A stretch of DNA of 64,000 nt from positions 1 through 64,000 of the forward strand of contig JANXBW010000024.1 of assembly GCA_025060325.1 (NCBI GenBank), in the 5' to 3' direction. The notes below the pieces were generated by a model. It saw only the letters and a program-made list of their open reading frames with translations. It searched no databases and was not told the DNA's origin. The DNA comes from Thermoguttaceae bacterium. GTDB lineage: Bacteria > Planctomycetota > Planctomycetia > Pirellulales > Thermoguttaceae. Within the stretch, counting starts at the first letter, position 1. Each line of letters starts with the position of its first letter. The position numbers and the translations under genes are program-made. This document shows, one piece after another, positions 1,014-45,608 of this stretch.

Positions 1014-2180
1014 ATGGGGTCGGACAAAAAGAAAAAAAAGATCCGCGCTGATTTTCGCAAGCATGTTGACGAACGGGAACGGGTTAAGGACCTTACCCGC
1101 CGTTTTAGCCTGGAAGAGGAAGAGTTTGACAGCTTCCCGGCGGAGGAGCGACTGACGGGCAAAGGCAAACTTCGGAAGCGGCGGACAATTGTGGTTGAAA
1201 GCGCGGACGAAGACCACGCCGATGCAGTCTCCCCAGCTCATCTGCTTGAGGTGGACTTATCGGTTTGCCGCCCAGGCCGGATCCTCAGTGTCCACGGTGC
1301 CACCTGCGAGGTGGAGGCCGAGGACGGACAGATCTTCCGCTGTGCGGTTCGCCGCCTGCTCAAGACAATCCAGAGCGATTATTGGAATGTGGTGGCGGCA
1401 GGGGACCGAGTCCTCTTTCGCCCGGTGGAAGGCACGGATCACGAGGGGGTGATCGAACGGGTGGAACCGCGGCATGGGATTTTGAGCCGAAAAAGTCGCG
1501 GCCGCCAACAGGTGATTGTCGCTAATGTCGATCAACTTCTGATCGTAGTCAGTGCGGCTGAACCGCCTCTGAAACCCAACCTTATTGATCGGCTGCTCAT
1601 CAGCGCGGAAAAGGGGCGCATTCGGCCGATCATTTGCATCAACAAGATTGACTTGGTCGATCCGGCTGAGCTTATGCCTCTGGTGGGCATCTATGCCCAG
1701 CTGGGTTACCAGGTCATTTTGACAAGTGCCACGACCGGCTTTGGCATGGAGCGCCTGCGGCGGATTCTTTCTGGTCAACAAACCGTGTTGGCCGGGCAAA
1801 GCGGCGTAGGTAAGTCCTCGCTCCTTAATGCTATCGATCCCAATTTCCGTCTGCGTGTGCAGCCGGTCAGTCCCGACACTCACAAAGGTCGGCATACGAC
1901 CACTACAGCCCGGGTGCTCCGCCTGGCTAGCGGGGGATATGTTGTCGACACCCCGGGGATCCGACAGTTTGAGCTGTGGGACGTGGTGCCGGAGGAAATC
2001 GCCAGTCTCTTCCCCGAGTTCCGACCTTACCTGAATGGCTGCCGATTCCCCGATTGTACACATTTGCACGAAACGGACTGCGCGGTGAAAAATGCGGTGG
2101 CAGATGCCCGGCTGGATATTCGCCGCTACGAAAGCTACTGCCACTTGATGAGCGAGGAGGAGGAAGACTTCGAGGAATAG
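1014..2180 (+). CDS. rsgA: RsgA, circularly permuted ribosome small-subunit GTPase
   Basis: 388 residues, ATG start preceded by AAGGTG about 5 nt upstream. RsgA (YjeQ/YloQ) is a GTPase that acts late in 30S subunit maturation. A Lys/Arg/Glu-rich N-terminal extension of about 75 residues precedes an OB-fold. The GTPase motifs occur in permuted order: G4 (NKIDL, near residue 211) comes before G1 (GQSGVGKSS, near 263) and G3 (DTPG, near 313). The C-terminal zinc motif is present as Cys-x4-Cys-x-His-x5-Cys (CRFPDCTH followed by a Cys). The permuted order plus zinc motif is diagnostic for the family. The charged extension is longer than in E. coli RsgA and may contact rRNA, which is inference. The next gene on the strand is another ribosome-linked GTPase, HflX, but 568 nt separate them, so an operon is uncertain. 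Confidence 0.95.
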   Translation: MGSDKKKKKIRADFRKHVDERERVKDLTRRFSLEEEEFDSFPAEERLTGKGKLRKRRTIVVESADEDHADAVSPAHLLEVDLSVCRPGRILSVHGATCEVEAEDGQIFRCAVRRLLKTIQSDYWNVVAAGDRVLFRPVEGTDHEGVIERVEPRHGILSRKSRGRQQVIVANVDQLLIVVSAAEPPLKPNLIDRLLISAEKGRIRPIICINKIDLVDPAELMPLVGIYAQLGYQVILTSATTGFGMERLRRILSGQQTVLAGQSGVGKSSLLNAIDPNFRLRVQPVSPDTHKGRHTTTTARVLRLASGGYVVDTPGIRQFELWDVVPEEIASLFPEFRPYLNGCRFPDCTHLHETDCAVKNAVADARLDIRRYESYCHLMSEEEEDFEE

Positions 2181-2748
2181 TGACCAGAATTGGGCAAACT
2201 GCGGGAGCATTGTGCTCGGCGACGGACCCCCACAGGCTCGGCCCCATAAACGGACGAAAAAGCTGCGAAGGGCAGGGTAGAAGGGTAGAATGAAATAGAG
2301 GCGGAGGCTGCGGCGATTTTGCCCGTTCCGCTAAATTTCAGGGGTTGAGGGCAGGGATAAGTTACATAAGCTTGCCGCCCATCACGGTAAGTCTCGGAAT
2401 TGGTCTTCGTAAAAGGCCACTTGTTGAGTGCAGAGCGTCCGCCTCGGAGAGCAGCAACGAATCGAAGATCGTTTTGGAGCGGTCAACCGGAAGGTCGGCC
2501 CGAGCCCGGCTAGCCGAGGATCGATGCTGGGCTGAACGAATGGGGCCGGCGGAAGGAGCGTCCTTCGCAACTAAGTTCTAAAGTCAGCTGAATATCACAA
2601 TGACGAAGCTTGTGGCAGGGTGGGCACCAAATCCTCCGAGAGCCCAGCAGCCAGTAGTTGTGGGACCTTGCCAGCCTCTTGTCTTCGCCAAGGGTGGATC
2701 ACTCGCAATTGTCAACACCACGTTCTTTTTACGGGAGGCCCTCGATCG
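2181..2748. other. Intergenic region rsgA-hflX
   Basis: No supported gene. The hflX reading frame remains open back to a GTG at 2620, but the 43 extra residues do not resemble the family and a better-placed start with a Shine-Dalgarno site lies at 2749. I found no hairpin with a T tract that would clearly end rsgA transcription. Confidence 0.5.
2733..2738 (+). promoter_or_regulatory. Shine-Dalgarno site deciding the hflX start
   Basis: GGGAGG lies 10 nt upstream of the GTG at 2749. No comparable site precedes the in-frame GTG at 2620. This supports a start at 2749, which also matches the usual N-terminus of the family. Confidence 0.6.
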
Positions 2749-4089
2749 GTGAGAGACCGCGCGCGACTTGGTACGCCGGAACTTGAACGAGCGGTACTTG
2801 TTGGCGTTTATCTGCCGGATAGGCCACCGGAAGACCCACCACTGGCCGAGTTAGAAGGACTAGCGGAAGCAGCTGGGGTTCAGGTGGTTGGCAAGCTCGT
2901 CCAGCGTCGGCAGGCTCCCGACCCCACGTATTACTTGGGCAAAGGGAAGGTGCAGGAATTGGGCGAGCTTGTCATCCAGTCGAAGGCAGAGACAGTGATC
3001 TTCGACAACGATCTGACCGCGGCGCAAACCCGCAACTTGGAAAATGTCCTCAAGCGAAAGGTCATCGATCGCACGGAGCTAATTCTCGATATCTTTGCTA
3101 CCCGAGCGCGGACTCACGAGGCCCGCATTGCGGTGGAGCTAGCCCAGCTTGAGTACACCCGGCCGAGACTCCGCCGCATGTGGACACACCTTGAGCGACT
3201 GCGCCGAGGCGTAGGCCTGCGCGGTCCTGGCGAAAAGCAGTTGGAAGTCGACCGGCGACTCATCGACAAAAGAATCCACGAATTGCGGCGGGAACTTGCG
3301 ATCATCGAGCGGCGCAAGAAGCGCGAAGTAGCTGCCCGGCGAGAATGGTTTACGATTTCCCTAGTGGGCTATACCAACACCGGTAAGAGCACCTTGCTCA
3401 ACAAGCTGACCGGCGCTAATGTCTTCGTTCACGATATGCTCTTTGCCACGCTGGACACGCGAACCCGCCGGTGGTATATCCCCGGGTGGGGGATGGTCCT
3501 TTTGAGCGATACTGTGGGGTTTATCCGGGACCTACCGCACCATTTGGTGGCAAGCTTCCGCGCCACCTTGGAAGAAGCCCGGCAAGCGGATTTATTGCTT
3601 CACGTGGCCGACGCAGCCCATCCCCAGGTGCTAGAGCAAATTAAGGCGGCCTACCGGGTGCTTGAGGAGATTGGTATTGAACGTAAGGACACCATCCTTG
3701 TCCTCAACAAAATCGACCTTCTGGAGGACAGGTCGCGACTGGATGCTATCCTCAATGTTTACCCGGCAGCTATTCCGATTAGTGCTCACACGGGCGAAGG
3801 AATGGACAGGCTGACCGAGGCGGTGCGAGAAGCGCTGGGCCGACTGATGGTCGAACTTGAAGTCGAGACGAGCATTGCCAATGGTCGACTGCTTAGCTTT
3901 TTGGCAGTCAATAGCGAGGTTCTTTCCCGCGAATTCCACGATTCCGTGGTCCGTGTCCACTGCCGAATAGCGGCCCAACACCTTGGGTTGGTTCGGCACC
4001 TGGGTGGAACGGTCCTTAACCAGGATCCCCCGCCCGACAACCCAGAAGAGGCATGGGAACCGCCGGCCGTCGCCCACGAAGTGCCCTAA
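2749..4089 (+). CDS. hflX: HflX, ribosome-associated GTPase
   Basis: 446 residues from the GTG at 2749. HflX binds the 50S subunit and splits or rescues stalled ribosomes, notably under heat stress. The N-terminal HflX domain is recognisable from YYLGKGKVQEL and the 'DNDLTAAQTRNLE' segment. A basic coiled-coil-like linker follows (GVGLRGPGEKQLEVDRR), then the G domain: G1 GYTNTGKST, G3 DTVGFI, G4 NKID and G5 SAHTGEG. A C-terminal subdomain of about 80 residues completes the protein. Length and motif order are typical. The gene is convergent with queD, with about 80 nt between the stop codons. Assignment is secure; only the start was ambiguous. Confidence 0.95.
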   Translation: MRDRARLGTPELERAVLVGVYLPDRPPEDPPLAELEGLAEAAGVQVVGKLVQRRQAPDPTYYLGKGKVQELGELVIQSKAETVIFDNDLTAAQTRNLENVLKRKVIDRTELILDIFATRARTHEARIAVELAQLEYTRPRLRRMWTHLERLRRGVGLRGPGEKQLEVDRRLIDKRIHELRRELAIIERRKKREVAARREWFTISLVGYTNTGKSTLLNKLTGANVFVHDMLFATLDTRTRRWYIPGWGMVLLSDTVGFIRDLPHHLVASFRATLEEARQADLLLHVADAAHPQVLEQIKAAYRVLEEIGIERKDTILVLNKIDLLEDRSRLDAILNVYPAAIPISAHTGEGMDRLTEAVREALGRLMVELEVETSIANGRLLSFLAVNSEVLSREFHDSVVRVHCRIAAQHLGLVRHLGGTVLNQDPPPDNPEEAWEPPAVAHEVP

Positions 4090-35704: not shown

Positions 35705-37828
35705 GTGAGGCTCAACGAGACCGGCAAAACGCCGCTTGCCACCCCTGTCATTTCGGAAGCCGAAGCTTCCATTTCTCTTTCCCAGTGGAATCCCTGGACC
35801 TATCAGGAAAAGGACCTTCAGATCGTCAACAATCCGCTTGTCTCTCTGGCCCGTTTTCCCGGCCGGCTGGAAAGAGCCCAATTCCTGCCGATAGCTTATC
35901 GGGCAATGTTTCTATCTAGGGTCTTGGAAGAGATCCTTGTTGATCTTTACCACAAAGGGTACGTGAAAGGCACCGTTGCGCTTGGGCGGGGAAACGAGGC
36001 GACGGCCACTGCGATCGGGCTGAGTCTGCGGCCCGGCTGGGATGTGGTGTCGCTTCTTCATCGGGATTTAGCTGCCCACCTCCTTCTTGGTACGTCCCCT
36101 TACCAGGTCTTTTGCCAGTACATGGCCAACGCGGAGAGTCCTACCAAAGGCCACGAGGGCAATGTCCACTATGGGGATGCCCCCCGGCGGCGATTGCCGA
36201 TGATCAGTCATCTGGGCAAGATGCTTAGCCTGGTGGTGGGGGGCACCTGGGCGGCCCGGCAGGCAGGGGAAAATTGTCTGGGACTTGCCATCATCGGCGA
36301 CGGTGGGTCTAGCACCGGCGAATTTCACGAGGCGCTCAACATCGCCTCTGTCCACAATGTGCCTGTGCTCTTCGTCATCGAAAACAATCGTTACGCCTTT
36401 TCCACACCGATCTCCGCTCAGTATCACTGCGAATTCTTGTCAGATCGGGCCAAGGCTTACGGCATCACTGGTCAAACGATTGATGGCACTGACCCTTGGC
36501 TTGTGTATACGACGATTCAGGAATTTTTCGGCCTAATGGAGCGCGATCCGGCACCGGCGATCTTGGAGTGCATGACGCTCCGCTTATGTGGCCACGCCGT
36601 TTACGACAAATGCGAATATGTTTCCAAGGAGGAATGGGCAGCGTGGGAAGCCCAGGATCCGGTACCGAGAGTTCGTCGACAGCTTCTGGAGGAAGGGCTG
36701 GCCCAGGAGGAGGAACTGGTCGCGTTTGAAGCCTGGGTGCGAAAAGAGCTTCAGCAAATATGTTTACGGGCGCTGCGAGTGCCCCCGGCCCGACCGTCCG
36801 GCAAGAGCGGCTGGCCAGTCTTTGCGACCTCAACCCCCGGTACCAAACTCCCGCCCTTTAAAGCTCAGAAGGTTAAAAACGGCTCTGCCGTCACCTTGGC
36901 CTTAGATTACATCCTCAAGCATGACCCGAAGGCCTTTCTGGTCGGCCTTGACATCGGCCGATACGGCTCGGCCTTTAAGACTTGCAAAGGACTTATCGAT
37001 CGGTACGGGCCCTCCCGAGTGATTGATATGCCGATTGGCGAATCGGGCATTATGGGCTTTGCCTTGGGAGCAGCCCAGGTCGGAGCCAAGCCCATTATGG
37101 AATTTCAGTTTGCCGATTTTTCGACGGAAAGCACCACTCAGCTTGGCCTCAATGCGGCCACCTGGTTTTTCCGAAGCGGAAGCCCCATGCCCATCCTTGT
37201 GCGGATGCCCTGCGGCGGGGGCCTGACGATGGGAGCATTCCATTCGGCCGAACTGGAAGGCCTTTGGGCGCGGTTCCCCGGACTGAAAGTCCTTTATCCA
37301 GCGACAGCTCAAGAGATTTTCGAAGCCTTGGTAGCCGGCTTTTTTGACCCCAATCCCTGCGTGGTCTTCGAACACAAACTGCTTTACTGGAGCAAATCGG
37401 GGGATATCGACTTTAACGGTGAACTTGATAATATTTGGCGGCCCCGAAAGTACTTGGACGGCGACGCCGTAACCGTCGTGGCTTTTGGGGCAATGGTCCA
37501 CGAGGTTTTGACGGCAGTGGGGCAGGTGGGAATAGCTGCCGAGGTATGGAATCCGTTTGTGCTTCAGCCCCTGGCGATTGAGCCCGTGGTGGAGTCGGTG
37601 CGTCGCACTGGCCGATTGGTCGTCGTTCAGGAATCTCCCCGAGCGCAGGGGTTGGGTGATCGGATTATTTCGCTCATTTGCCAGATCGATCCGAGCGTCT
37701 TTCGTGTCCCGCCGGTATTGGTGGCCTCGCCAGATGCCCCGGTGCCATTTGCCCCGGAGCTGGAAAGCCATTATCGCCCCAATGCCCAGCGGATTGGTGA
37801 AGCGTTACAGGCAGTAGTGACCCCTTAA
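35705..37828 (+). CDS. 2-oxoacid dehydrogenase E1, fused alpha-beta subunits
   Basis: 707 residues, GTG start after GGGGGA. This thiamin-diphosphate enzyme decarboxylates a 2-oxo acid and passes the acyl group to lipoate. The alpha half (about residues 55-350) holds RGNEATATAIGLSLRPGWD, SHLGKMLSLVVGGTWAA and the TPP motif GDGGSSTGEFHEALN to ENNRYAFSTP (near 197-235). The beta half (about 380-705) holds MPIGESGIMGFALGAA, FADFSTES, RMPCGGGLTMGAFHSAELEG and LKVLYPATAQE. Fused E1 proteins of this kind are usually branched-chain 2-oxoacid (BCKDH-like) or related enzymes. Only 3 nt separate it from the next gene, a lipoyl-KAS III fusion, so translation is probably coupled. No E2 acyltransferase or E3 gene is in the window. 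Substrate not determined; branched-chain 2-oxo acids are the leading guess. Confidence 0.88.
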   Translation: MRLNETGKTPLATPVISEAEASISLSQWNPWTYQEKDLQIVNNPLVSLARFPGRLERAQFLPIAYRAMFLSRVLEEILVDLYHKGYVKGTVALGRGNEATATAIGLSLRPGWDVVSLLHRDLAAHLLLGTSPYQVFCQYMANAESPTKGHEGNVHYGDAPRRRLPMISHLGKMLSLVVGGTWAARQAGENCLGLAIIGDGGSSTGEFHEALNIASVHNVPVLFVIENNRYAFSTPISAQYHCEFLSDRAKAYGITGQTIDGTDPWLVYTTIQEFFGLMERDPAPAILECMTLRLCGHAVYDKCEYVSKEEWAAWEAQDPVPRVRRQLLEEGLAQEEELVAFEAWVRKELQQICLRALRVPPARPSGKSGWPVFATSTPGTKLPPFKAQKVKNGSAVTLALDYILKHDPKAFLVGLDIGRYGSAFKTCKGLIDRYGPSRVIDMPIGESGIMGFALGAAQVGAKPIMEFQFADFSTESTTQLGLNAATWFFRSGSPMPILVRMPCGGGLTMGAFHSAELEGLWARFPGLKVLYPATAQEIFEALVAGFFDPNPCVVFEHKLLYWSKSGDIDFNGELDNIWRPRKYLDGDAVTVVAFGAMVHEVLTAVGQVGIAAEVWNPFVLQPLAIEPVVESVRRTGRLVVVQESPRAQGLGDRIISLICQIDPSVFRVPPVLVASPDAPVPFAPELESHYRPNAQRIGEALQAVVTP

Positions 37829-37831
37829 CCT

Positions 37832-39154
37832 ATGGTTCAAACCCGTTTTCGAATTCCCCTCTTTCTCCCCGCTCAGGGTGCTGCTGAGACCGAGGCCACT
37901 ATCGTTCAGTGGTACGTCCAGGAGGGGCAGGAGGTCCAGCAGGGCCAGCCCTTGGCTCAGGTGGATAGTGCGAAATCGGTCTTTGATTTTGAGTCCCCGT
38001 GCGCCGGGAAAATCGCGCGGATTTTGTGTCAGGCTGGCGAAAGTGTGCCCTACGACCGGCCGGTCCTTGAAATCGAAACCGACGACCCGGCTATGCAGCA
38101 ATGGATCCCGCCGGCCCCCCTGGTTGCCAAGGAGGAATCCGCCCCTGGCCCAAGCTCGGCGGTAAGCGGCTCGGCGACGGAAGAAGTAGCGACGACTGCC
38201 ATTTTGGGAGTGGGAGGTTACCTCCCTTCGCGGGTTGTTACCAATGAAGAGCTCATCGGGCGGTTCGCAAGCATTTCCGCCGATTATGTTTACCAAGTCA
38301 CCGGAATTCGCGAAAGGCGATGGGTGGGCGAGGGAGAGCGACCAAGCGACTTGGCCTACCGGGCGAGTTTGGCGGCAGTGGCCGATGCTGGCGTCCCGCT
38401 GGGCGACATTCAGGCGATCGTCCTGGCGACTACCACCCCCGATGTGGCGATGCCAGCTACCGCGTGTATTTTGCAGGCCAAGTTGGGGCTAAATCACATT
38501 CCTGCTTTTGACATCAACGCAGCCTGTTCCGGATGGCTTTATGCGCTGGGAGTGGCTCGAGGACTAATTGCCGCAGGCACGGCGGAGACGGTGCTTGTGG
38601 TTGGGGTGGATGTCCAGTCGCGACTTCTTGACCTGAATGATCCGAACACGTGCTTCCTGTTTGGCGACGGAGCGGGGGCGGCCATAGTGGCCAAACACTC
38701 CGGCGGCCACCGGGTGGTCGAGTTTGTCATGGGCACGGATGTCCGCGGGCTGCGCTGGGCGCGGCGGTGGGAGCCTGGCTTTGTGGCGATGGATGGCCAA
38801 CCGGATGCCGATCCTTGGATCCGCTTGGAAGGCCAGCCACTTTTCCGGAGCGCCTCCGAAAGTTTTGCCGCCGTCATTCGCCAAGTGCTTCAACGAACAC
38901 GCTGGCCGGCAGAGGAGGTTCGCTGGGTGGTGCCCCATCAAGCCAACTCGCGAATTCTTCGGGCGGCAGCCAAGCGATCCGGCATAGATCCGGAGCGATT
39001 CTTCGTCAACATTGAGCGGGTGGGTAACACCTCAAGTGCCAGCATTCCCTTGGCGCTAGAGGAACTTCGCCCCAGGCTTCAACCCGGCGATAAACTTGTC
39101 CTTTGTTCCGTGGGCGCAGGCCTCACTTATGCCGCCGCGGCGGTGGAATGGTAA
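37832..39154 (+). CDS. Lipoyl domain fused to 3-oxoacyl-ACP synthase III (KAS III)
   Basis: 440 residues, ATG 3 nt after the E1 stop and without its own ribosome site, indicating coupling. Residues 1-90 are a biotinyl/lipoyl-type domain of the E2 kind (VQEGQEVQQGQP, then QVDSAKSVFDFESP with Lys48 at the lipoylation turn). A linker of about 35 residues rich in Ala, Pro, Ser and Glu follows. From about 124 onward it is a full thiolase-fold KAS III: VTGIRERRW, DINAACSGW with catalytic Cys232, VVPHQAN with His369, and VGNTSSAS with Asn399. KAS III normally condenses an acyl-CoA primer with malonyl-ACP. The fused lipoyl arm, together with E1 next door, suggests priming from lipoyl-bound acyl groups. 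The acyltransferase domain of a normal E2 is absent. Domain calls are firm; the mechanism is inference. Confidence 0.9.
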   Translation: MVQTRFRIPLFLPAQGAAETEATIVQWYVQEGQEVQQGQPLAQVDSAKSVFDFESPCAGKIARILCQAGESVPYDRPVLEIETDDPAMQQWIPPAPLVAKEESAPGPSSAVSGSATEEVATTAILGVGGYLPSRVVTNEELIGRFASISADYVYQVTGIRERRWVGEGERPSDLAYRASLAAVADAGVPLGDIQAIVLATTTPDVAMPATACILQAKLGLNHIPAFDINAACSGWLYALGVARGLIAAGTAETVLVVGVDVQSRLLDLNDPNTCFLFGDGAGAAIVAKHSGGHRVVEFVMGTDVRGLRWARRWEPGFVAMDGQPDADPWIRLEGQPLFRSASESFAAVIRQVLQRTRWPAEEVRWVVPHQANSRILRAAAKRSGIDPERFFVNIERVGNTSSASIPLALEELRPRLQPGDKLVLCSVGAGLTYAAAAVEW

Positions 39155-39335: not shown

Positions 39336-40649
39336 ATGAAGATATTGGTCGTAGGCAGTGGCGGCCGAGAGCATGCCCTAGCCTGGAAACTCAAGCAAAG
39401 CCCCCTCGTTCGCCAAGTATTTGTCGCTCCCGGCAACGCAGGGACGGCCAAGGATGCTACCAACGTCCCCATCGCGGCCGAGGACATCCCCGGACTTGTC
39501 CGGTTTGCCCGCCAAGAAAAAATCGATCTAACCGTGGTAGGGCCAGAGGCACCACTTGCCGCCGGGATTGTGGATGCCTTCCAGGCCGAGGGGCTGCGGA
39601 TCTTTGGTCCCTCTCGACTTGCCGCCGAGCTGGAATCGAGTAAGGTGTTTTGCAAACACTTGCTTCGCAAATTCAAAGTGCCGACGGCAGAGTTCTGGAC
39701 GTTCGACCAGGCGGAAGATGCTCTGCGGTTCCTCGAAAACCGTGGAGATATGCCGGTGGTGGTCAAGGCGGATGGCCTTGCCGCCGGGAAAGGGGCTTTT
39801 GTCTGCGACAATATCGAGCAGGCAATGCACGCCGTGCGACAGATCGCAATCGACAAAATCTTTGGACAGGCAGGCAATCGGTTGGTGATTGAAGAGCGCC
39901 TCCATGGACCGGAGTTGAGCGTCCTTGCTATCACCGACGGAAAAACGATTGTCACCCTTCAGCCCGCCCAGGATCACAAGCCGGCCTACGACGGGGACCA
40001 AGGTCCCAACACCGGCGGGATGGGAGCCTACTCCCCAACCCCGCTTATTGACGATGCGACCTTGCACTGGATCGAAGAGCATATCCTTGTGCCGACCGTG
40101 CACGCGATGAACCGGGAAGGTCGGCCGTTCCTGGGCGTGCTTTATGCGGGACTTATGTTGACGATCCAAGGTCCCCGGGTGCTGGAGTTCAACGTGCGGT
40201 TTGGCGATCCCGAATGCCAGCCGCTTATGATGCGACTTCGGTCCGATTTGGCGGAAATCCTCCTAGCGGCCACCGAGCGTCGACTGGAGGCGATCGAGGC
40301 AGTCGAATGGGATCCGCAAGCAGCTGTTTGCGTCGTGATGGCCAGCCGCGGCTACCCAGGCAGTTACGAAAAGGGCCATCCGATCCGTGGGCTGGAAGAG
40401 GCGGAGCAACTTCCGGGCGTGAAGGTCTTCCATGCGGGTACCGCATCCAAGGACGGACAGATTGTCACCGCAGGAGGCCGAGTCCTTGGCGTAACCGCCC
40501 TAGGGGAAACCATTCCCCAGGCCAAGCTGCACGCTTATCAAGCAGTTAAGCTCATCCGCTGGGAGGGCGCCTGGTGCCGAAAGGACATATCCGACAAAGC
40601 CTTACCTTATCTTACCGGGGCAGCTCCGGTGTACCGTCCTCCCACCTGA
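39336..40649 (+). CDS. purD: Phosphoribosylamine-glycine ligase (GAR synthetase)
   Basis: 437 residues, ATG start with CTGGAG upstream. PurD ligates glycine to 5-phosphoribosylamine with ATP, the second step of purine synthesis. Recognised segments: MKILVVGSGGREHALAWKL at the N-terminus; the ATP-grasp core VVVKADGLAAGKGAFV; VLAITDGKTIVTLQPAQDHK; the family signature GPNTGGMGAYSP; and LEFNVRFGDPECQ with metal-binding Glu and Asn. The C-terminal domain is complete. It is monocistronic, about 180 nt after the KAS III fusion and convergent with the sensor kinase gene. Confidence 0.96.
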   Translation: MKILVVGSGGREHALAWKLKQSPLVRQVFVAPGNAGTAKDATNVPIAAEDIPGLVRFARQEKIDLTVVGPEAPLAAGIVDAFQAEGLRIFGPSRLAAELESSKVFCKHLLRKFKVPTAEFWTFDQAEDALRFLENRGDMPVVVKADGLAAGKGAFVCDNIEQAMHAVRQIAIDKIFGQAGNRLVIEERLHGPELSVLAITDGKTIVTLQPAQDHKPAYDGDQGPNTGGMGAYSPTPLIDDATLHWIEEHILVPTVHAMNREGRPFLGVLYAGLMLTIQGPRVLEFNVRFGDPECQPLMMRLRSDLAEILLAATERRLEAIEAVEWDPQAAVCVVMASRGYPGSYEKGHPIRGLEEAEQLPGVKVFHAGTASKDGQIVTAGGRVLGVTALGETIPQAKLHAYQAVKLIRWEGAWCRKDISDKALPYLTGAAPVYRPPT

Positions 40650-44144: not shown

Positions 44145-45608
44145 GTGGGTGGGCAAGGATTTGCTGGTCCACTAGAGCGGGTAAGCGAAACCGAATGGAA
44201 GATCCCGCGCTCGTACAAGCCGGGCATGCGGGTTGACGGGATCATCTTTGCTGACGAGCAGCTTATTGAACAAGCGAAATCGGACATGGCCCCCGAGCAG
44301 GTGGCCAACGTGGCTTTCCTGCCAGGTATCCAGCAGGCCAGCTTAGCGATGCCGGACATCCACTGGGGCTACGGCTTCTGCATTGGCGGGGTTTGTGCAA
44401 CTGATCCGGAAGAAGGTGGCGTCATCTCCCCCGGTGGCGTGGGCTACGACATTAACTGCGGAGTGCGGCTGGTTCGTACGGATCTTCGCCTCGAGGATGT
44501 CCAGCCCCGGATCCAGCAGCTAGTTAACCACCTCTTCCAGCGCATCCCCGCCGGTGTGGGGGAAGGTGGCCCATTCAAGTTTAGTCGCGAGGAAATCCGG
44601 AAGATCCTGGCTGAGGGTGTCCACTTTCTAAAAAAGCGCGGCTGGGCAACCGACAGCGACATTGAATGCACCGAGGAGGGCGGGCGCATCGCCGGGGCCG
44701 ATCCCGACGCGGTAAGCGACAAGGCAATTGAGCGGGGGCTAGACCAATGCGGCACCCTCGGTTCTGGAAACCACTTCCTCGAAGTCCAGGTGGTCGAGGA
44801 AATCTTTGACCCCGAAGCCGCCCAGGTCATGGGCCTCCAGGAAGGCGGAATTTGTGTGATGATTCACTCCGGTTCCCGGGGCCTCGGGTACCAGGTGTGC
44901 GACGACGCCCTCCGACTTTTCCGCAACACACCGGAAAAGTACGGCATTTCGCTGCCTGATCGTCAACTAGCTTGTGCTCCCGTAAATAGCCCGGAAGGGC
45001 AAAAGTATCTTGCCGGCATGCGGGCAGCGGCTAATTACGCCTGGGCCAACCGGCAACTGTTGATGTTCCTTACCCGGGAGGCCTTCGAGGACTTCTTTGG
45101 CCGGCCTTGGGAAGAACTGAAGATGAACCTCGTTTACGACGTGGCCCACAATATTGCCAAATTGGAAAAACACATAATTGACGGCCAGGAGAAGCTCGTG
45201 TGTGTTCACCGCAAGGGGGCAACCAGGGCATTTCCCCCTGGTCATCCCGAGGTACCCGAGCGATACCGGAGCATTGGCCAGCCGGTGATTATCCCTGGGG
45301 ACATGGGCCGATCGAGTTGGGTCTTGGTGGGTCAGCCGGGTAGTATGGAGAAAGCATTCGGCACAACCTGCCATGGTGCCGGGCGACTGATGAGCCGAAA
45401 CGAAGCCATTCGCCACGCCCAAGGTCGGCGGATTGATCAGGAACTGGCCCAGAAAGGCATAGTCGCCAAAGCGCGAAGCCGCACCGGCTTGGCCGAGGAA
45501 CAACCCGACGCGTACAAGGACGTCAGTTTGGTGGTCGATGTGGTCGACAGGGCGGGCTTGGCCAAGAAAGTCGCCCGACTTCGTCCGCTTGGCGTGGTGA
45601 AGGGTTAG
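44145..45608 (+). CDS. rtcB: RtcB, RNA-splicing ligase (3'-phosphate/5'-OH ligase)
   Basis: 487 residues, GTG start 7 nt after GAGGAG. RtcB joins RNA 2',3'-cyclic phosphate or 3'-phosphate ends to 5'-hydroxyl ends using GTP and manganese, in tRNA splicing or RNA repair. Family motifs are complete: MPDIHWGYGFCIGGV, GGVGYDINCGVRL with the metal Cys, GTLGSGNHFLEVQ, MIHSGSRGLGYQ, HRKGATRAFPPG and TCHGAGRLMSR, which holds the histidine that is guanylylated. The length (about 480) is the long form common to archaea and many bacteria. No archease, RtcA or RtcR is seen in the neighbourhood. Together with the absence of an rtcR-like activator this suggests constitutive rather than stress-induced expression, which is inference. 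Confidence 0.97.
   Translation: MGGQGFAGPLERVSETEWKIPRSYKPGMRVDGIIFADEQLIEQAKSDMAPEQVANVAFLPGIQQASLAMPDIHWGYGFCIGGVCATDPEEGGVISPGGVGYDINCGVRLVRTDLRLEDVQPRIQQLVNHLFQRIPAGVGEGGPFKFSREEIRKILAEGVHFLKKRGWATDSDIECTEEGGRIAGADPDAVSDKAIERGLDQCGTLGSGNHFLEVQVVEEIFDPEAAQVMGLQEGGICVMIHSGSRGLGYQVCDDALRLFRNTPEKYGISLPDRQLACAPVNSPEGQKYLAGMRAAANYAWANRQLLMFLTREAFEDFFGRPWEELKMNLVYDVAHNIAKLEKHIIDGQEKLVCVHRKGATRAFPPGHPEVPERYRSIGQPVIIPGDMGRSSWVLVGQPGSMEKAFGTTCHGAGRLMSRNEAIRHAQGRRIDQELAQKGIVAKARSRTGLAEEQPDAYKDVSLVVDVVDRAGLAKKVARLRPLGVVKG

Follow-up and report, generated by a model that had tools for sequence, protein, structure and literature searches.

A fused E1 gene beside a lipoyl–KAS III gene: a candidate 2-oxo acid dehydrogenase complex with a condensing enzyme in place of the E2 acyltransferase

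Can a lipoyl arm deliver its acyl group straight to a condensing enzyme? The question is raised by two plus-strand genes in a 64,000-nucleotide (nt) stretch of a Thermoguttaceae bacterium (Planctomycetota; assembly GCA_025060325.1, contig JANXBW010000024.1, positions 1 to 64,000), referred to below as the window. One gene (35705..37828) codes for a 2-oxo acid dehydrogenase-type E1 with its alpha and beta parts fused; the other (37832..39154) joins a lipoyl domain to a β-ketoacyl-acyl carrier protein (ACP) synthase III (KAS III). A first-pass annotation of the DNA had proposed that the acyl group moves from lipoate to the KAS cysteine with no free coenzyme A (CoA) step. The comparisons reported here are best explained if a condensing enzyme has replaced the E2 acyltransferase of a 2-oxo acid dehydrogenase complex. 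It is very probable that E1, lipoyl arm and KAS III act as one unit.

The gene pair and its genomic background

The first gene specifies a protein of 707 amino acids (aa) from a GTG start and is, as first annotated, a complete thiamine diphosphate (ThDP)-dependent E1. Pfam detects E1 alpha (E1_dh, PF00676; residues 65–356, 35897..36772; 2.2e-53), the pyrimidine-binding domain of E1 beta (PF02779; residues 389–561, 36869..37387; 1.4e-27) and the C-terminal domain of E1 beta (PF02780; residues 585–697, 37457..37795; 4.1e-20). Active-site letters, which we take to be catalytic, were found in both parts, namely H119, R120, GDG, N227 and H297 in alpha and E446 and H513 in beta. No E1 family model met its curated cut-off, hence no substrate can be read from these models.

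The second gene begins with ATG, 3 nt past the E1 stop (37828 to 37832), and specifies 440 aa. Its lipoyl domain (approximately residues 5–83, 37844..38080; PF00364 match 12–81, 3.5e-14) carries the predicted lipoylation site K48 within the motif DSAK (codon 37973..37975). A linker of about 37 residues (84–120, 38081..38191) leads to the FabH-like KAS III domain (residues 121–440, 38192..39151), which is recognised by Pfam (PF08545, 2.8e-27; PF08541, 3.8e-31), by family models (PRK09352, 323.7 bits, cut-off 249; TIGR00747, 297.7 bits, cut-off 292.1) and in the structure model. Alignment places the KAS nucleophile at C232 (38525..38527) and the catalytic His and Asn at H369 (38936..38938) and N399 (39026..39028). 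These three residues and K48 had been assigned correctly in the first-pass annotation and are invariant in 19 of 19 aligned lipoyl–KAS III sequences. It had also noted that an E2 acyltransferase domain is missing, and Pfam gives no match to 2-oxoacid_dh (PF00198) in the 440 aa protein at E 0.001.

An AlphaFold2 model of the lipoyl–KAS III protein, based on a 41-row alignment, has a mean predicted local distance difference test score (pLDDT) of 88.7. Confidence is high for the lipoyl barrel and for most of KAS III, but not for residues 98–116 of the linker (pLDDT <50) or residues 310–313. The top Foldseek matches of the model are FabH structures, with TM-scores by target length of 0.92–0.96 for the 20 best PDB entries.

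Two trivial explanations were rejected. A chance fusion or an assembly artefact does not fit the recurrence of the pair in many genomes, among them relatives in the family (second protein 52–77% identical), and its occurrence as a single chain in others. Biotin instead of lipoate was dismissed on the motifs around the conserved lysine, which are DSAK, ESDK, EADK or EATK as against EAMK in the biotin carrier of the same genome.

The assembly comprises 4.78 Mb in 89 contigs and is 95.57% complete. It codes for four PF00364 proteins, these being AceF, the biotin carrier (EAMK), GcvH and the lipoyl–KAS III protein. AceF contains lipoyl, E3_binding and acyltransferase domains and lies on a contig other than the window's, together with a 480 aa protein resembling dihydrolipoamide dehydrogenase (E3) and an AceE-like open reading frame (ORF; by eye); the other PF02852 match resembles, at a glance, another reductase. 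The earlier annotation had named a conventional E2 for this E1 elsewhere, combined with a KAS III using only acyl-CoA, as a finding that would refute it. Among the PF00364 proteins of this genome no lipoyl-acyltransferase besides AceF was found, a genome-wide PF00198 search not having been made. Because AceF is the only candidate among these proteins and sits with an AceE-like ORF and an E3, the window's E1 has no other obvious E2 in its own genome. Three proteins carry PF02779, the other two in frames of 720 and 671 aa, and a search with the window's E1 protein at 1e-20 returned one match, itself. PF08541 is likewise present in three proteins: the lipoyl–KAS III protein, a FabH in a frame of 361 aa and, in one of 378 aa, a divergent member.

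The CoA site of lipoyl-partnered KAS III

If the acyl donor of KAS III is a lipoyl arm, is the CoA site of FabH retained? PMC4606726 describes E. coli FabH–CoA structures superposed on another FabH, in which T28 and W32 hold the adenine, R151 stacks on it, and R36 and two Asn (209 and 246 in the numbering of that paper) hold the pantetheine. We aligned 116 stand-alone FabH-like sequences, E. coli FabH included, with 46 lipoyl-partnered KAS III: 21 from two-gene loci of the window's family (architecture A), five from single chains (B) and 20 from Opitutae (C). The stand-alone panel derives from 128 KAS ORFs, five of which (L054, L208–L211) were reassigned to the lipoyl-partnered group and seven dropped for coverage below 90%, identity below 33%, length below 290 aa or near-duplication. 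As the scan patterns included PHQANxRI, the FabH panel is partly selected for H244, N247 and R249, though not for T28, W32, R36 or R151.

The two sets differ sharply at the CoA contacts. W32 is present in 116/116 stand-alone sequences and in 0/46 lipoyl-partnered ones, and T28 in 105/116 as against 0/46. R36 is kept in 112/116 versus 4/46, all four belonging to B, and R151 in 106/116 versus 12/46, all of these in A. The residues C112, H244, N247, R249 and N274 are preserved without exception in both sets. At the places of T28, W32, R36 and R151 the window's protein has I148, Y152 (38285..38287; the position of adenine stacking), V156 (38297..38299) and P271 (38642..38644), i.e. none of the CoA-site residues of FabH, while R249, which we take to be an ACP contact, corresponds to R374 (38951..38953).

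The substitute for W32 depends on the clade, being Y in A, D in B and E in 18 of 20 C sequences; these clade-specific replacements are what one would expect from abandonment of the CoA site, as opposed to a single change in it. Five Opitutae genomes in which both proteins could be aligned have T-W-R-R at T28, W32, R36 and R151 in the separate FabH and R-E-L-H in the lipoyl partner. A further difference concerns F87, presumably a position of the acyl pocket, which is F in 68/116 stand-alone sequences and in 0/46 lipoyl-partnered ones (M, V, T or I); its loss may provide room for a larger acyl group.

Three architectures, their ancestry and their neighbours

The first-pass annotation had proposed looking in other genomes for lipoyl–KAS III proteins accompanying fused E1 genes; the search found the coupling conserved, in three architectures. 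Architecture A is that of the window's family, where a complete lipoyl–KAS III protein occurs in 21/37 genomes (two matches within one frame in one of them, G021) and one truncated by a contig end in G013, making 22/37. An E1 of the same class (≥49% identity per piece) is found in 23 family genomes, which are all 22 of these plus G006, where E1 stops at the contig edge; the remaining 14/37 have neither. With start codons placed by homology, the intergenic gap is −4 to 8 nt in 12 of 16 measured loci and 104–164 nt in four.

In architecture B, E1 alpha, E1 beta, lipoyl domain and KAS III form one chain of 1140–1300 aa. This order was read from the chains in all five genomes concerned and confirmed by Pfam in the two that were run. 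Two of the five (G052, G041) are among 23 same-order genomes outside the family and three (G170, G399, G413) among 392 genomes drawn from the phylum, each with four candidates scored.

Architecture C belongs to Opitutae (Verrucomicrobiota). There, KAS III follows a lipoyl and an E3_binding domain and so occupies the slot of the E2 acyltransferase, either within one protein, as in the 529 aa lipoyl–E3_binding–KAS III of an Opitutaceae bacterium (L051; Pfam), or on a neighbouring gene, as in L054. The gathered loci contain 15 distinct three-part proteins by BLAST and five others split into neighbouring genes. A C-type KAS III matched at ≤1e-75 in 18/337 Verrucomicrobiota genomes, which are related by descent and do not stand for 18 independent events; only three to four candidates per genome were scored in the surveys of this phylum for KAS III and E1. 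The E1 of a sister class is present in 27/337, including 18/18 of those with the C-type KAS III, and is mostly not adjacent; of 48 genomes listed at 1e-90, these 27 at ≥50% identity were kept and 21 at 33–39% were excluded. In the genomes of L051 and L054, the E1 fusion is 41–43% identical to that of the window, their other E1s 28–32%. One Opitutae genome (G447) carries two lipoyl–E3_binding–KAS III proteins (L194, L212), the second 60% identical to the first. An Opitutae-type match (L302; residues 2–529, 59% identity) was also seen in a metagenome-assembled genome titled Akkermansia muciniphila (G812, the genome of L088), a title that is possibly a mislabel.

Among 50 genomes surveyed by record name, two had the Opitutae type, both with Verrucomicrobiota names. 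A pattern scan of genome contigs returned at least 592 rows, so occurrence outside the groups listed here may be wider. Matches were found in 404 plasmid records, none covering 80% of the query in one place. Sphingobacterium and some other Bacteroidota, which gave long matches in the contig scan, were considered as members and rejected: BLAST there shows a FabH and, after it, a short protein of its own that matches the lipoyl/biotin type weakly and that we take for a biotin carrier.

Does an E1 fusion by itself predict a KAS III partner? For comparison, loci with ordinary E1s from the same order were inspected as a control on 13 of 14 fetched stretches, L299 (G006) being excluded as of the window's own class. 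Seven of the 13 (L288, L289, L292, L293, L294, L297, L301) adjoin an acyltransferase E2. In L300 the contig breaks off where a lipoyl protein begins, L290 and L296 lie at or near a contig end, and L291 and L298 show no acyltransferase E2 on the fetched stretch. The last, L295, codes for an 852 aa E1 alpha–E1 beta–lipoyl fusion (1152-3710) and has no acyltransferase or KAS III match on its 9 kb stretch. With a KAS III match at 0/13 ordinary loci, the E1 fusion alone is therefore no predictor; what sets the window's kind of locus apart is that the acyltransferase has been replaced.

Trees were computed for both partners. In a quick tree of 130 rows the KAS domains of A, B and C each form one clade (support 99–100). 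In a second one of 59 rows (10/21 A, 5/5 B, 8/16 of the fused-set C and 36 FabH) they stand together against the 36 FabH with a support of 98. On the 59-row data, constraining A and C to group together gave a tree 8.5 log units better than the free one, and this tree was not rejected (p-AU 0.67). The E1 tree comprised 10 A rows, five B rows and, out of 26 C rows, the first 14; it unites A and C in a clade with a support of 100, separate from ordinary E1 fusions, and the G006 E1, entered as outgroup, groups with the window's family. Either a single origin with an exchange of E1 in B or two separate assemblies would be compatible with both trees. Since the E1s are of different lineages, the single-chain form and the two-gene and Opitutae forms may have been assembled separately.

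At the Opitutae locus L248 (2801-8432) the E1 fusion is followed by genes for a HAD phosphatase (KdsC-like), an LptA-like protein, an ABC ATPase and HPr kinase, and by clustering these lipopolysaccharide-type families reappear in other E1 stretches. The lipoyl–E3_binding(–KAS III) gene adjoins CTP synthase in L051 (6294-10343), L054 (5519-9493), L254, L258, L276, L278 and L284–L286, often with a DAHP/KDO8P-synthase family gene in between and, in several, an RsmE-like methyltransferase on the far side; the CTP synthase setting is absent around the lipoyl genes of L255 and L256. No common pathway emerged from the neighbours of the window's pair and of ten other loci from its phylum. Downstream in the window lie purD (39336-40649), a histidine-kinase-like gene on the opposite strand (by eye) and rtcB (44145-45608); among the clustered loci a purD-like neighbour is limited to the window, L037 and L038.

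Proposed mechanism, its rivals and known systems

How might such a complex work? The ThDP-dependent E1, whose domains and residues are observed, would decarboxylate a 2-oxo acid and reductively acylate the lipoyl arm at K48. The arm would then enter the active site of KAS III and pass the acyl group to C232, whereupon KAS III would condense it with malonyl-ACP to a 3-oxoacyl-ACP, from which a fatty acid or related chain would start. Re-oxidation of the arm would fall to a dihydrolipoamide dehydrogenase, probably that encoded next to AceEF, and free acyl-CoA would not be required. On the partnerships, domain order, residue patterns, control loci and trees described above, we consider direct transfer from lipoyl to KAS followed by condensation to be likely, with clear reservations.

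A branched-chain 2-oxo acid is the most likely substrate, because AceEF already serves pyruvate, F87 is never F in the 46 partners, and cultured Opitutae have iso and anteiso branched acids. Two descriptions report iso-C15:0 or iso-C14:0 for Lacunisphaera (PMC5303756) and iso-C14:0 for Coraliomargarita parva (PMC10288369), species that may or may not be represented among the searched genomes. Iso- or anteiso-branched primers, the product suggested in the first-pass annotation, are thus plausible only indirectly.

Several observations weigh against this mechanism. Nine of the 27 Verrucomicrobiota genomes that carry this E1 class lack a KAS III of the lipoyl-partnered type, all candidates having been scored, and their best KAS III match is in 9/9 a FabH with intact CoA residues (G617 and G629 have additional divergent matches). 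The same nine (L275–L283) each code for a lipoyl–E3_binding protein with the motif ESDK, on whose fetched surroundings neither a KAS III nor an acyltransferase match was found; in the two with readable neighbours (L276, L278) this gene adjoins the same two gene families as in KAS-bearing genomes. E1 and lipoyl arm can therefore exist and serve without this condensing enzyme. In one of the nine genomes (G523, stretch L239) an acyltransferase ORF fragment lies about 7.5 kb from E1, and at 95.57% completeness an E2 for the window's E1 could be missing from the assembly. The 12/21 A sequences with R151 and the 4/5 B sequences with R36 retain part of the CoA site, and loss of CoA contacts would also be expected with an acyl-ACP donor. 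The KAS domains of B fall among FabH at open forks in the 130-row tree, which contains one very divergent row, and the E1s of B, with a long-branch warning, are of another lineage, among other E1s. The lipoyl-lysine arm is, moreover, shorter than phosphopantetheine and would need to dock more deeply. The proposed absence of a free CoA step fits the loss of the adenine contacts alongside retained catalytic residues and Arg249; the nine genomes with E1 and arm only count against a strict reading of it.

KAS III might instead act solely as an acyltransferase, an unusual E2 that takes acyl groups off the lipoyl arm and loads them on ACP (or CoA), no condensation being involved. Its place in the E2 slot of Opitutae is in line with this, as is the persistence of the lipoyl–E3_binding partner without KAS III in nine genomes, so that acceptors may vary; yet H244 and N274, needed for condensation, are kept in 46/46 and could have been lost by a mere acyltransferase, and we regard this possibility as improbable. 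Less probable still is that the lipoyl domain serves as a tether only, KAS III drawing on a nearby pool of acyl-CoA made by some E2 such as AceF. AceF does possess the acyltransferase domain and R151 survives in 12/21 A sequences, but W32 and T28 are gone in 46/46, the single-chain forms contain no acyltransferase, and AceF has its own apparent E1 and E3 on another contig.

The CoA site of FabH is likewise lacking in KAS III enzymes with acyl-ACP donors. An acyl-ACP donor, with a redox, regulatory or other role for the lipoyl part, would agree with the retained Arg249; the constant E1 partnership across three architectures makes this very hard to credit. A different matter is end use. The Opitutae unit could serve lipopolysaccharide, for example the acyl chains of lipid A, rather than bulk fatty acids, and the window's version may differ. 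This concerns the destination and not the mechanism and is compatible with the best explanation. The genes after E1 in L248, recurring at other E1 stretches, and the CTP synthase and, often, DAHP/KDO8P-synthase family genes that precede the lipoyl gene point towards it, but no such genes occur beside the window's copy or among 20 annotated neighbours of ten other loci of the phylum, and we hold it to be possible though rather doubtful.

Taken together, we would narrowly favour a distinct class of 2-oxo acid dehydrogenase with a ketosynthase as acyl acceptor, in which decarboxylation would be coupled directly to C–C bond formation and primers, for fatty acids or lipid A, would bypass acyl-CoA. 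In bacteria that rely on FabH, acyl-CoA is regarded as the starting point of fatty-acid synthesis. If the lipoyl arm primes the ketosynthase directly, a CoA-free entry would lead from amino-acid-derived 2-oxo acids to lipids; such a transfer, if shown, would be new chemistry and would offer a ready-made engineering module for branched or unusual starter units. A probable role would also be assigned to a protein labelled simply β-ketoacyl-ACP synthase III by the family models. We recognised no description of a lipoyl–KAS III protein in the titles and abstract openings of the open-access PMC papers searched; both parts are of known kinds, and their union, new to us, is apparently undescribed.

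With pyruvate and branched-chain 2-oxo acid dehydrogenases having an alpha2beta2-type E1, the complex shares the E1 catalytic residues, a lipoyl domain whose conserved lysine stands in E/D-x-x-K (not EAMK), an E3 in the genome and, in Opitutae, the E3_binding domain in E2 order. Unlike them, its lipoyl protein has KAS III in place of the PF00198 acyltransferase, and an acyl-CoA product is not expected. With KAS III/FabH (PRK09352, TIGR00747) it has in common the Cys-His-Asn residues, the FabH fold and the family-model matches, and it differs by the N-terminal lipoyl domain, the replacement of T28 and W32 in 46/46 and the E1 partner next door. The closest functional parallel is the route to branched fatty acids through Bkd and FabH, which also operates in Bacillus. 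Like that route, described for Staphylococcus in PMC10026030, the candidate complex would turn 2-oxo acids into this type of product, but in the Bkd–FabH route two separate enzymes pass free acyl-CoA from one to the other, whereas here a single protein contains both the arm and the condensing enzyme.

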